From: Acidobacteriota bacterium | GTDB lineage: Bacteria; Acidobacteriota; Blastocatellia; UBA7656 | Assembly (NCBI GenBank): GCA_040754075.1 | Contig: JBFMDH010000006.1 | Coordinates: 228,285 to 292,284 of the forward strand | DNA: 64,000 nt | Reading direction: 5' to 3' | Part shown: positions 57,357 to 63,634 of the stretch, in pieces | Position numbering within the stretch: position 1 is the first letter of the stretch | Layout of the letters: the number at the start of each line of letters is the position of its first letter | Notes under the pieces: generated by a model | What the model saw: only the letters and a program-made list of their open reading frames with translations | Databases searched by the model: none | Told to the model about the DNA's origin: nothing | Position numbers and translations under genes: made by a program

Positions 57357-57776
57357 TTATAGATTATCAATGGCGCGGCGGAGTTTTTCATTGACCTGCT
57401 CGGCTGCGCCGGCGAGCGCCGGGTTGCCGACAATCGATAGCATCTTTGCCGCATCAATCGCTGCAACGAATGATTGACCCTGCTTTTCATACACCACGAC
57501 ATTGCAGGGCAACAGCAACCCTAAATCGGGTTCGGCTTGCAAGGCTTGATAAGCGATGGGCGGATTGCAAGCGCCCAAAATCACATAATCATTAAACTCG
57601 ACGCCCAGTTTTTCTTTGAGCTTGTCTTTGATATTGATTTCGCAAAGCACGCCAAAACCTTCCGCTTGCAAAACCGTTTTGGCGCGTTCGATGGCTTGAG
57701 GAAATGGCAGGTCAAGCGTGCGACCATAGCCATACTTCAAGTCGTTTTTGGCTGTTGAAATTGATGATTCGCTCAT
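57357..57776 (-). CDS. DUF302 family protein
   Basis: A 139-residue protein with AAGGAG before its [25 protein letters not shown] and [32 protein letters not shown] are family hallmarks. DUF302 proteins are small, probably metal- or redox-linked, of unknown function and often found near stress and thiosulfate-related genes. Two cysteines (ACNPP and LPCNVVV) are conserved in the family. It is the last gene of the Usp operon. Confidence 0.85.
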
Positions 57777-57819: not shown

Positions 57820-57972
57820 TCAAGGCGCTTTGGACTCAGGGTCATCTTCCGGTCGAAACTCGACCTTGCAGGAATTGGCGGCTCAGGTCGAAACCCCAAA
57901 CCTGGGTAACACCCAGCGCATCAGAATGAGATAGCCGATAAAAAACAGCAGTGGCATTAACCAATCGGACAT
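57820..57972 (-). CDS. Tiny membrane protein, candidate selenoprotein
   Basis: The ATG at 57972 follows AGGAGG and starts a 29-residue protein, MSDWLMPLLFFIGYLILMRW then VLPRFGVST: one transmembrane helix and a short tail, ending at TGA (57883-57885). If this TGA is read as selenocysteine (U), translation continues 20 residues as STUAANSC and a charged tail with KVEFRPEDDPESKAP to a TGA at 57820, giving 50 residues with a U-x4-C pair. A SECIS-like hairpin starts 17 nt after the TGA. Without Sec decoding the product is the 29-residue form. The gene lies between Usp (5 bp) and DUF302 in one operon. Confidence 0.55.
57847..57874 (-). promoter_or_regulatory. SECIS-like hairpin after an in-frame TGA
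   Basis: On the minus strand TTCC-TGCAA-GGTCGA-GTT-TCGACC-GGAA can fold as a 6-bp upper stem with apical loop GTT and a 4-bp lower stem with a 5-nt bulge. The apical G is 24 nt after the first base of the TGA, within the range known for bacterial SECIS elements. Confidence 0.45.
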
Positions 57973-57977
57973 GAAAA

Positions 57978-58850
57978 TTATTCCTCCTCTTTATGAACAA
58001 CTGTCAATACAGGACAGGGCGCGTAACGGGCAACGCGCATAGTAGTCGAACCGATGACCGTGGTATCTCTGAAACGGCGATGGCGCGCGCCCAAGACAAT
58101 TAAATCGGTTGCTGTTGATTCGGCAATCGAAACGATCTCCTCGGGCGCATCACCGCTCACCGCAATCTCTTTCAAGCGGCACTGATTGCGCAGCGATTCG
58201 GGAACCCACTGACATAGCCGCTCTCGCCTTGCGGCTTCATTGGTCTCAGCATCGGCTTCGATAACATGCACAACCAGCAGTTCGGCGTTGAAAGCTTTGG
58301 CGACCGCAGCAGCGTATGCCAGGGCGCGATGCGCGGTTTCCGTAAAGTTGACCGGGCAGAGAATTCGCTGAAGACGAAAGGCTGTCGCTTCGCTCGCTTT
58401 TTCCGCCCGATGAACCGTCAGGACGGGACGATTGGTTTCACGTAAGACGCGCTCGGTAACTGAGCCGAGCAAGAAGCGATTGATGCCGTTATGCCCGTGT
58501 GTTCCCATTACAATCATATCGGCATTGCGGGCTTCGGCAGTATTGATGATTGCCGCGACTGGCAAATCATCAACCACGAAAATTTCCGTATTGCGAGTGT
58601 CGCCGATTACCTCTTTAACATAACTGTGCAAATTTTCGTGCGCTGCCTGTTTGGAATGCGCCAGCGTTTTTGCCATCGCTTCGACTTGTCCGGCGGTGAA
58701 ATGCGGCGGCGGCAAAAACTGATGGGCGTACAAGACCAGCAAGCGCGCATCCATTTTGGCGCTCAAAGCTGTGGCATAACGCAATGCCGAAGCAGCAACA
58801 TCGCTGAAATCAACCGGGCACAAAATCAGTTTGGGGTGAAAGTTGTTCAT
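57978..58850 (-). CDS. Tandem universal stress protein
   Basis: A 290-residue protein started at the ATG 5 bp after GGAGG. Two Usp domains: the first with VMGTHGHNGINRFLLGSVTERVL (complete G-x2-G-x9-G-S ATP motif), the second with VLGARHRRFRDTTVIGSTTMRV (a degenerate motif). The two domains are of different lineage from the Usp protein at 29427. Its 3' end contains the Shine-Dalgarno site of the tiny membrane protein gene. Confidence 0.9.
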   Translation of the reverse strand: MNNFHPKLILCPVDFSDVAASALRYATALSAKMDARLLVLYAHQFLPPPHFTAGQVEAMAKTLAHSKQAAHENLHSYVKEVIGDTRNTEIFVVDDLPVAAIINTAEARNADMIVMGTHGHNGINRFLLGSVTERVLRETNRPVLTVHRAEKASEATAFRLQRILCPVNFTETAHRALAYAAAVAKAFNAELLVVHVIEADAETNEAARRERLCQWVPESLRNQCRLKEIAVSGDAPEEIVSIAESTATDLIVLGARHRRFRDTTVIGSTTMRVARYAPCPVLTVVHKEEE

Positions 58851-58883
58851 CACATCCTCCCAATCTCTTGACCTTCTTAAAAA

Positions 58884-59692: not shown

Positions 59693-60166
59693 TTAAGACC
59701 CGGAAGCCACGACTTGTTCTTTCATTTCCTCAAAAGCGATTTCCGGCTCAAGCTTGACGATAGTGTTGATTGAGTTCGAGATCAGACAATTGCGTTCGGC
59801 TTTTTCCAGTATTCGACCGGCGCGTTCGAGGTCGCGGCTTTGACGAATGACGAGTTTCGGATGCAGGGTGATTTCGGTAACTTTAAACCCTTCGCCTTCG
59901 ATTTTTTCCAGTTTGCCGCTGGCGTTGCAGGTAAAACTCGTAAAGTCGAGTTTCGAGAGTTCGGCAATTGCCAGAAAGGTCGTCATAAAACAGACATTGA
60001 CCGAGGCAACATAGAGATGCTCAGGCGTCCAGATATTTTCGTGCCCTTTGAATTCCGGTGGCGCAGCGATTTCAAGACTTGGCAGATGCAGAGCGCGTAA
60101 TTCACCTTTGCGCGCTCCCTTCCATTCAACTTGGGTGTCATAAAAATACGGTAATTCGTTATTCAT
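59693..60166 (-). CDS. OsmC-like redox protein
   Basis: A 157-residue protein starting at MNNELPYF after AAAGGA. The OsmC fold is suggested by PEHLYVASVNVCFMTTFLAIAE and by the GFKVTEITLHPKLVIRQ strand. Only one of the two reactive cysteines of the classical peroxidase pair is certain (NVCF); the second is near NCLIS. It may reduce organic peroxides or disulfides. Confidence 0.8.
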   Translation of the reverse strand: MNNELPYFYDTQVEWKGARKGELRALHLPSLEIAAPPEFKGHENIWTPEHLYVASVNVCFMTTFLAIAELSKLDFTSFTCNASGKLEKIEGEGFKVTEITLHPKLVIRQSRDLERAGRILEKAERNCLISNSINTIVKLEPEIAFEEMKEQVVASGS

Positions 60167-60298
60167 AATAATCCTTTCGGCATTTAATGCCTGCTTATGA
60201 TTTGCAATATAATGTTCGACCAACTTCGTTTCCCTTTGCTGGCAGAAGAACCGACGATGCGCTTATGCCGTCGTCGTTTCTTTCGCAAGTCCTACACC

Positions 60299-63200
60299 TC
60301 AATCAGCCGCGGTTCCAATCGCTGATGGGTTGTCGGAATCATCCGAGGCATCCAGTTGTTCAGGCGGCGGCACACTTTCAGGTTCAGGTTCCTGGTGTTT
60401 CCTGCGTTCACTCAGGTAATACAAAATCGGCACCGTCATGCGTGAAAGCAGCAGCGATGCGACTTCGCCAGCCATCAACGAAATCGCCAAGCCCTGAAAT
60501 ATCGGGTCAAACAAAATCACCGCCGAACCGACGATGACCGCCGCCGCCGTCAGCATCATTGGGCGAAATCGCACAGCGCCCGCATCAATTACTGCATCAG
60601 CAAGCGGCATTCCCTGTTTCAAGCGCAACTCGACAAAATCAACCAGAATAATCGAATTGCGCACCACGATGCCTGCGCCCGCAATGAAGCCAATCATCGA
60701 TGTCGCTGTGAAAAACGCATTCATCAATCCGTGCGCGGGCAAAATACCGACCAGCGAAAACGGAATCGCCGCCATAATCGTTATTGGGGTTTTGAATGAT
60801 TGAAACCAGCCGACCACGAGAATGTAAATCAAAATCAACACGGCTGCGAAAGCTATCCCCAAATCACGGAAAACTTCATAAGTGATGTGCCATTCACCGT
60901 CCCATTTCATGGCGAATTTATTGGCGATGAACGGTTGCGTCGCGGTGTAACGCTCCATCGCGTAACCTTCCGGCAACTGCATATTTTCAATCGCTTCGTT
61001 GAGATTGAAAATCGCATAGACCGGGCTTTCAACGCTTCCCGCCACATCACCCGTGACATAAGTCACCGGCATCAGGTTTTTGTGATAGATGCTTTTGTCT
61101 TGCAGGGTTTCTTCGACGTGAACCAGTTCGCTCAGCGGTACGAGATTGCCGCGCCCGCCCATGACTTTGATTTGTTTCAAATCATCAACGCTTGAACGCT
61201 CCTGACGCGGCAGACGCAAAACAATCGGCAAATCCTCTTTCTCCTGCGGTTGATGCGCCAGTCCAACTTGCATTCCATCAACCGCTATCTTCAAGGTCGC
61301 GGCGACCTGTTCGGTTGAAACCCCATTCAAAGCGGCTTTCTGTTTATCGACCACGAAACGATATTTCGGCTGGTCGTCTTCGACATACCAATCGACATCC
61401 ACGACGCCTTCGGTTTTATCGAAAATATCGCGAACCTGTCTGGCAATTTCGATTTGCCTGTTGTAATCAGGTCCGTAAATTTCCGCAACCAGAGTTTGTA
61501 ACACCGGAGGTCCCGGCGGCACCTCTGCAACTTTGACGCGCGCCTGATATTTTGTGGCGATTTGTTGAACGAACGGACGCACACGTTTGGCAATCTCGTG
61601 GCTTTGGGTATCGCGTTCGCCTTTCGGAACCAGATTGACCTGAATATCCGCGACATTCGACCCGCGCCTTAAATAGTAATGACGCACCAACCCGTTGAAG
61701 TTGTAAGGCGAGGCGGTGCCAACATAGGTTTGATAGTCTGTGACTTCCGGCACCGTGCGAATGTAATCGCCAATCTCGCGAGTGAGTGCGGCTGTTTGTT
61801 CAAGCGTCGTGCCTTCGGGCGTGTCGATGATGATTTGAAATTCGCTCTTGTTATCAAACGGCAACATTTTCACCCGCACCAATTTGAAAGCCACAAGCGA
61901 CATTGAACCGAGCAATAGAACCGTAACCAGCAATAAAAATCCGTATCGCCATTTCGGAAGGCGAATCAATCTGCTCATTACCGTGCGATAGAGTTTCGTT
62001 GCGCGCCCTTCTTCGGGTTCAACATGTCCGCCTGTGTGTTTAAGCAAGCGAAAACTCGCCCACGGGGTGACGACAAAAGCGACCAGCAATGAAAAGAGCA
62101 TCGCGGCGGTTGCGCCAATCGGAATCGGGCGCATATAGGGTCCCATTAGTCCGCTCACAAAAGCCATTGGCAAAATCGCTGCGACGACGGCGAAGGTCGC
62201 AAGAATCGTCGGGTTGCCAACTTCATCGACGGCTTCAACGGCGATGTTCAGAATCGAACGCCCGCGATTTCCCGGCAAGTGATAATGGCGCGCGATGTTT
62301 TCAACAACCACGATGGCGTCGTCAACCAGAATGCCGATGGAAAAAATCAGCGCAAACAGCGTGATGCGATTGAGCGTGTAGCCGTAAAAATAGAAAACCG
62401 CCAGCGTCAATGCCAAAGTCACGGGAATCGCTATCGCGACAATCCCCGATTCGCGAAATCCCAACGTGATCCAGATAAGCAGAGCGACTGAAAAAATCGC
62501 AATCAACATATGAAAGAGCAATTCGTTCGATTTTTCGCTGGCGGTTTCGCCGTAATTGCGCGTGGTTGTCAATTGCACATCCGCGGGAATCAACTGCCCT
62601 TTCAGTTCATTGACTTTTTCCAAAACGTGGTCGGCAATTTCAATGGCGTTGGTGCCCTGGCGCTTGGCAATCGAAAGCGTGACCGCAGGCAATAACAATT
62701 GCGAATTGCGGGAGAGGCTCAAGCCTGCTGCGGATTGCGGATTGACTGCTTCGTTGCCTTGTTGGGTTGTCGGTTCTTTTGCTGCGCCATTGCCGAACAT
62801 CACGTAATCGCTCGGTTCTTCGGCTGCGTCTTCAATGTTAGCGACCTCGCGCAAATAGACCGGACGATTATTGAAGACGCCGACAACGACATTGCCAACC
62901 TCTTCGGCAGTGTGCAGAAAGCCGCCGGTTTCAACTAAAAATTCGCGGTTGTTTGCTGCAAAACTTCCCGATTGTAACTGACGATTCGCCTGTTCGAGCA
63001 TCGGCACCAGGCTTGCGGGCGCGACATTGTACGCCGCCATCTTCGCTTCATCCAAAGTGACGCGCAATTGCCGACGTTCGCCACCGATGATTTTTACTTC
63101 CGAGACATCTTTAATCTCTTTTATCTGGTCGTGCAGTTGCGCGGCGATGCGCCGCAAAGTGAAATGGTCATAGCGGTCACTGGAAAGCGTCAGTGCCAGA

Positions 63201-63634
63201 ATCGGCACATCATCAATCGAACGCGGTTTGACGATGGGCGGAGTTGCGCCCTGCGGAATCAAATCGAAATTGGCGAGCATCTTTTGATTGAGGCGAACGA
63301 TGGCGTCTTCTTCTTTTTGCCCGACATAAAACCGCACAACCACCATTGCCATCCCCGGCGAAGAAGTTGAATAGAGATATTCAACGCCGGGCACTTCCCA
63401 GAGTAATTTCTCCATCGGCTTGGTGACGCGCTCTTCGACCTCTTTCGCGGATGCGCCGGGCATCGCGACGAACACATCGATCATCGGCACGATGATTTGC
63501 GGTTCTTCTTCACGCGGCAACATCACGACCGCGCCGAGTCCTAAAAGAATCGCTGCGGCAATCACCAAAGGCGTGAGCTTTGAATCGATGAACGCCCGCG
63601 CCATTTTTCCAGCTATTCCAAGTTCTTCTTTCAT
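60299..63634 (-). CDS. RND-type efflux pump inner-membrane transporter
   Basis: A 1111-residue protein of the AcrB/CusA superfamily: 12 predicted transmembrane helices in two halves, each followed by a large periplasmic loop. The proton-relay pair lies in [20 protein letters not shown] (TM4). It works with the membrane-fusion protein upstream (11 bp gap) and an outer-membrane factor not seen here. Substrate class is open: the overall sequence is closer to HAE1-like or unassigned bacterial RND pumps than to metal-specific CusA, since no Met triad was evident. Residues about 299-313 are encoded by the 44-bp repeat also present in hypF. Confidence 0.9.
62696..62739. repeat. 44-bp element inside the RND pump gene
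   Basis: 42 of 44 bases match 48750-48793 in hypF on the same plus strand, while the host genes run in opposite directions. AATTGCG-type heptamer pairs flank GGAGAGGCTCAAGCCTGCT, whose AGGCT-CA-AGCCT centre is palindromic. Confidence 0.85.

Follow-up and report, generated by a model that had tools for sequence, protein, structure and literature searches.

A 50-residue membrane protein of an Acidobacteriota bacterium very likely carries selenocysteine at an in-frame UGA

We analyzed a 64,000-nucleotide stretch of DNA from an Acidobacteriota bacterium (the window) and conclude that a tiny gene on its reverse strand very likely encodes a one-helix membrane protein of 50 residues, the reading of which continues through an in-frame TGA as selenocysteine (Sec). 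Sec incorporation is without experimental proof, there being neither protein nor 75Se data. Our high confidence that UGA codon 30 is decoded as Sec rests on the gene itself, conservation of the UGA, covariation in a hairpin just downstream, the Sec machinery, and the genomic neighborhood. For the hairpin as for Sec, the decisive evidence is comparative and does not come from the window alone.

The tiny gene and the codon at position 30

The coding sequence, MSDWLMPLLFFIGYLILMRWVLPRFGVST-U-AANSCKVEFRPEDDPESKAP, occupies 57820..57972 (-), final stop included. It starts with an ATG at 57970-57972 (-), is preceded by the Shine-Dalgarno sequence AGGAGG at 57983..57988 (-), and terminates in a TGA at 57820-57822 (-). 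The 29 codons before the in-frame TGA specify a hydrophobic helix followed by LPRFGVST, and 20 codons come after it. The TGA itself is codon 30 (57883..57885 (-)), where standard annotation ends the gene and which we read as Sec30; Cys35, encoded by TGC at 57868..57870 (-), is a possible selenenylsulfide partner of Sec30. An earlier, sequence-only reading had claimed a well-started 29-residue membrane ORF up to the TGA, a frame continuing for 20 residues past it with a cysteine five positions on, and a GGTCGA/TCGACC hairpin starting 17 nt past the TGA with G and T in its loop. All three claims held (the first on the AGGAGG, ATG and hydrophobic helix, the second on the translation and Cys35, the third with a loop of GUU), and its interpretation as Sec insertion is supported, mainly by the comparative evidence.

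A single-sequence AlphaFold2 model predicts one membrane helix at residues 5-24 (57901..57960 (-)) and a loose tail. Confidence in the model was low overall (pLDDT 69.3), with block means of 82 and 88 over residues 1-20. Across the 51 phylum members described below, the first five residues carried a mean net charge of -0.67 and the 12 residues preceding the Sec site one of +1.6. The orientation of a membrane protein can be judged from such charges by the positive-inside rule, which would therefore put the Sec end at the inner membrane face and the N-terminus outside. This N-out, Sec-in topology is suggested by the charges and is inferred from sequence alone.

To collect relatives, 297 Acidobacteriota genomes were searched using a query with Cys in place of U. 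Matches were obtained in 52 genomes, of which 51 were real and one false (L094 in genome G026, excluded because its TGA is not at the motif). The codon at the site was TGA in 50 of the real members and TGT in the remaining one. The terminal stops of the same 51 genes comprised 28 TGA, 14 TAG and 8 TAA, with one gene cut off; since these terminal stops are mixed, stop-codon bias does not account for the TGA at the inner site. In the 51-member alignment, P23, G26, T29 and U/C30 were invariant. A cysteine at +4 to +6 from the site was present in 45 of the 51 phylum members and in 54 of 56 further members, and was absent from the other six and two, respectively. One further locus (L169), which has the TGA but has lost its 5' end at a contig end, was left out of the hairpin tests and of the codon, Cys and terminal-stop counts.

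A profile search of the phylum matched 74 of the 297 genomes at E <= 0.01, and inspection of the weak matches left 68 genomes with the TGA form and one with a Cys form. Four weakly matched genomes (G294, G198, G138 and G086) lacked the motif and were excluded, as was G215, whose motif is similar but is not preceded by a clear helix; G055, also a weak match, proved to be a genuine TGA member and was included. Beyond the phylum, contigs were scanned with the conserved stretch [VAI]LMRWVLP[RAK], which gave 37 loci. Of these, 36 were real (L135, without the motif, was excluded), 35 with TGA and one with TGT; nine of the 36 were taken as identical to loci among the 51. The groups named in their records included Acidobacteria, Blastocatellia, Bryobacterales, Deltaproteobacteria, Planctomycetota, Candidatus Kuenenia, Rokuibacteriota, Verrucomicrobia and others. 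Profile matches were obtained in 22 of 246 genomes of the phylum of the Planctomycetota-titled record and in 103 of 247 of the phylum of the Deltaproteobacteria-titled record (genome G297), the weakest of the latter being doubtful. Loci were inspected from 60 of those 125 genomes, and 57 carried TGA and three Cys.

Overall, a Cys codon (TGT or TGC) occupied the TGA position in four genomes, which answers the proposed check for orthologues with TGC there. The Sec reading would have been refuted had orthologues all stopped at this codon with nothing conserved downstream; this was checked and is not so, as TGA, Cys and hairpin are kept. One member (L227 in G172) has a shortened motif, LGLGU. Separately, one genome holds a second copy of the gene, also with TGA (L234, G029:C24:25964-26119), and one Cys form (L121/L051) comes from a record titled as a Bordetella parapertussis bin that is taken to group in the window's phylum and is probably a mislabelled MAG.

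The hairpin downstream of the UGA

The SECIS-like hairpin, GGUCGA-GUU-UCGACC, lies at 57851..57865 (-) and has a 6-bp stem and a loop of GUU; it begins 17 nt past the TGA, and its loop begins 23 nt past it. Folding of the 25-nt stretch 57870-57846 gave -8.2 kcal/mol, which 2 of 200 dinucleotide shuffles equaled, while the hairpin alone (15 nt) gave -6.8 kcal/mol. In a 45-nt stretch the hairpin was retained, but the energy was no better than that of shuffles (z -0.61), and a 76-nt stretch was likewise no better than shuffles (z 0.13), its minimum-energy structure differing from the hairpin. By itself, then, the window's hairpin is only modestly unusual, being equaled in 2.2% of 2000 synonymous resamplings.

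The comparative tests used 104 distinct downstream regions, two repeats having been removed from 106. The mean best-hairpin score was 17.1, compared to 10.6 ± 0.29 under synonymous resampling (reached in 0 of 200), and 97 of the 104 members had a stem of 5 bp or more, compared to a resampled mean of 41. Published bSECIS rules require a loop of 3-9 nt, a stem of 4-16 bp, a minimum free energy <= -7.5, a G in the first two loop bases, and a loop 16-37 nt from the UGA (PMC13188914). The loop, stem and spacing rules were met by 101 of the 104 members against a resampled mean of 64 and maximum of 77; the other three had no hairpin meeting them. The text that we consulted for the -7.5 rule does not specify the stretch to be folded. 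Applied to the bare stem, -7.5 kcal/mol was reached by 60 of the 104 members, compared to a resampled mean of 7.9. The window's own hairpin fits in loop (GUU), stem (6 bp) and distance (23 nt); in energy it passes when folded as 25 nt (-8.2) and fails as a bare stem (-6.8).

Covariation was assessed in 49 sequences (47 distinct) sharing one geometry. Since these had been selected for formation of the three innermost pairs, only the outer five pairs are free of selection bias. The covariation score was 0.641, compared to 0.228 in shuffled sets and 0.06-0.17 with the partner slid; i.e., sliding the partner strand abolished the signal. Paired cells made up 86.6%, and both sides had changed in 97 cells, compared to 35 after shuffling. 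Two of the five measures were weak: the number of pairs changed on both sides (7 vs. 5.8; 30 of 500 shuffles) and the number of pair types (21 vs. 19.1; 39 of 500 shuffles). The outermost pair was unpaired in 29 of 46. The Cys form L051 (G187) had a best stem of just 3 bp and no matching hairpin. Among the loops of the 104 members, GGA (27) and GUC (21) were the two main types, and it is possible that they mark different types of SelB recognition.

Selenocysteine machinery and co-occurrence with SelB

A genome without Sec machinery would also have refuted the Sec reading; this was checked and is not the case, as selA, selB, selC and selD are all there. The window's own genome has a tRNA-Sec scoring 65.5 bits, over the Rfam cut-off and in agreement with ARAGORN (SeC tca), together with matches to SelB (383.5 bits), SelA (565.9 bits) and SelD (353.2 bits), the last with one in-frame TGA. 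This SelD (L221, C29:72690-73613) has its TGA in the motif CAGUAAK and is a second probable selenoprotein; the organism therefore appears to decode Sec elsewhere too.

Across the phylum, with SelB presence defined as E <= 1e-60, SelB was found in 65 of 68 TGA genomes and in 131 of 229 others (Fisher p 1.8e-10, uncorrected for relatedness). Two of the 196 SelB genomes, probably including the TGA genome G242 (E 1.9e-61), fell under the curated cut-off; counting both as lacking SelB gave p 7.8e-10. The set was initially made up of 68 of the 74 profile-matched genomes (E <= 1e-5; 67 TGA, one Cys), to which G055 was then added. The TGA genomes without a match in the SelB search were G118 (86% complete), G127 (64%) and G055 (99%), and the Cys genome G187 gave no match either; among the four Cys genomes, SelB status in the phylum search covers G187 only. 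As a separate observation, G055 (TGA member L222) has no SelB match, and its same-genus relative G098 has SelB.

In the phylum of G297, 221 of 247 genomes had SelB: it was present in 96 of the 103 genomes matched by the profile and in 125 of the other 144 (p 0.14), a comparison that tests little because SelB is nearly universal there. For the conserved-stretch scan, SelB was checked in the genomes that hold 20 of its 37 loci: it exceeded the cut-off in 15 of 19 TGA genomes and did not in the other four, and the Cys genome had no match. One of the genomes with loci of this family, the Planctomycetota MAG G300 (L119), has three SelB matches over the cut-off.

Neighborhood, possible function and known systems

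The tiny gene sits in a run of genes on the same strand. Upstream, a universal stress protein gene (57978..58853 (-); PF00582, E 2.4e-55) ends 5 nt before its start, and downstream, 43 nt past its stop, lies a gene for a DUF302 protein (57357..57776 (-); PF03625, E 6.7e-26), a probable partner in view of their adjacency elsewhere. An OsmC-like protein (59693..60223 (-); PF02566, E 2.2e-15) and an RND-type transporter (60299..63634 (-)) belong to the same run; the latter is an open reading frame that belongs to the RND cluster counted below and is named from Pfam counts of neighbors (ACR_tran, 8 of 126), not from its own scan.

A census of neighbors covered 107 loci with up to six genes per side, names being assigned partly by Pfam on a subset and partly by eye. 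The RND cluster was near the gene at 17 of the 107 loci, and clusters interpreted as its fusion and outer-membrane partners at 14 and 11. A YgaP-like transmembrane cluster and another that we take, by its motif, to be an FmdB-like zinc ribbon were each found at eight loci, ArsR-like regulators at seven, and the DUF302 cluster at six; TlpA/thioredoxin-like proteins occurred at six and CcdA-like proteins at five, some on the opposite strand, with Pfam confirmation of the CcdA-like neighbor for L210 only. Many copies of the gene have other neighbors. In the 51 genomes, 10 of 46 DUF302 genes lay within 1 kb of the tiny gene, compared to about 0.03 expected (uncorrected for relatedness), and nine of these ten shared its strand; this proximity was seen in 10 of the 51 genomes. 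At L083 the order is ArsR, TauE, metallo-beta-lactamase/rhodanese, tiny gene, cytochrome bd and FAD oxidoreductase, and at L091 it is rhodanese/YgaP-like, metallo-beta-lactamase/rhodanese, TauE, tiny gene and DUF302. The regions of L208 and L210 each bring together an ArsR-like regulator, the tiny gene, a zinc-ribbon protein and a thioredoxin-like or CcdA-like protein.

We propose that the hairpin just 3' of codon 30 would direct SelB and tRNA-Sec to insert Sec at the UGA, and that the product would be a 50-residue membrane protein consisting of one helix followed by LPRFGVST-U. The Sec-Cys spacing of five suggests a reversible selenenylsulfide, so that Sec30 would probably pair with Cys35, an Se-S bond that is inferred. 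The pair may act as a membrane-anchored relay for redox equivalents or sulfane sulfur, with DUF302, rhodanese/persulfide-dioxygenase-like, thioredoxin or RND proteins as putative partners. Since the neighbors include DUF302, TauE, persulfide-dioxygenase-like/rhodanese, ArsR and RND proteins, our best guess is that this membrane-anchored selenol handles reactive sulfur (sulfide, persulfides). The guess is inferred from neighbors alone, and we hold it tentatively, as one that may well prove wrong.

Two other functions remain possible for the selenoprotein. It might be an accessory of the neighboring RND efflux system in metal or metalloid handling, as suggested by the RND cluster at 17 of 107 loci, its presumed fusion and outer-membrane partners at 14 and 11, and the ArsR-like regulators at seven; however, the DUF302, TauE and rhodanese neighbors indicate sulfur, and an RND gene was nearby in just 1 of 43 loci from the phylum of G297. 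Alternatively, it could serve general membrane redox (linked to thioredoxin/CcdA, or in peroxide defense) with no tie to sulfur compounds. The thioredoxin/TlpA-like and CcdA-like neighbors (six and five of 107 loci) and the Usp and OsmC genes within the window favor this idea, but it leaves unexplained both the repeated DUF302 adjacency and the gene runs of L083 and L091.

Very unlikely, in our view, is that the TGA is a plain stop closing a 29-residue membrane peptide, with the frame behind it due to chance or left over. In its favor, standard annotation ends there, the window's hairpin taken alone is only modestly unusual, and the 99%-complete G055 has a TGA gene without a SelB match. Against it, the site is never TAA or TAG, being TGA in 50 of 51 phylum members (plus one Cys) and in 57 of 60 further loci (plus three Cys), unlike the terminal stops, which vary; moreover, the downstream Cys is conserved, the hairpin covaries, Cys codons occur in four genomes, and SelB co-occurs. 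Genome-wide reassignment of TGA to another residue was rejected, as TGA is the commonest terminal stop (28 of 50 readable) and Cys stands at the site in relatives.

For the tiny protein, scans of 51 and 58 members (the latter without L174 and L217) gave no convincing match to Pfam or NCBIfam families, the best ones being weak and scattered (best E, respectively, 0.024 and 0.0021 for NCBIfam and 0.0051 and 0.0085 for Pfam), and searches of plasmid, PDB and PHROG collections yielded nothing of use. We recognized no entry as this family in the 119-family selenoprotein table of a 2026 review (PMC13188914), nor did we find such a selenoprotein described in the open-access literature searched, which did not cover most subscription papers and preprints. 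The deep-Sep authors state that selenoproteins lacking Cys homologues may escape their method (PMC12013277), which agrees with the absence of this family.

A bolder reading, which we offer as a conjecture rather more apt to fail than to hold, is that membrane-anchored selenol microproteins, nearly always with Sec and only very rarely with Cys, form a common, uncatalogued class whose role is to handle reactive sulfur, spread over Acidobacteriota, Planctomycetota, Deltaproteobacteria-type bacteria and others. Such a class would have escaped notice since its genes are tiny and appear truncated, and since for the most part they have no Cys homologues, on which homology-based selenoprotein finders rely. 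If the Sec reading is right, some bacterial phyla have a frequent selenoprotein that went unnoticed (the TGA form is in 68 of the 297 sampled Acidobacteriota genomes). The scarce Cys forms offer a natural test of what makes selenium necessary, and adjacency to DUF302 opens a way into the study of a domain whose function is unknown.

Among known systems, the bigR sulfide operon combines a repressor with a sulfur transferase/dioxygenase (PMC5823870). The layout of that operon also includes TauE. The L083 neighborhood is alike and that of L091 similar, and no selenoprotein is noted in what we consulted of the bigR work. YgaP-like transmembrane proteins (PF11127) are likewise tiny membrane proteins, with Cys-Pro behind the helix, but have no Sec, and the members scanned did not match PF11127. 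The putative mercuric transport selenoprotein (PF02411) has the motif C/SxxU (PMC13188914, Table 1). It is a membrane protein and resembles the tiny family in combining a membrane location with Sec, whereas the motif differs and the members scanned had no PF02411 match. Compared to bSECIS selenoproteins in general (PMC13188914), the 50-residue protein does not have a thioredoxin-like fold, its low-confidence model being a lone helix with a short, loose tail; its motif is T-U-x4-C, not UxxC or CxxU, and Cys homologues were rare among the genomes searched. With those selenoproteins it shares an in-frame UGA, a hairpin whose small loop lies 16-37 nt downstream and has an early G, and a genome encoding SelA, SelB, SelC and SelD.
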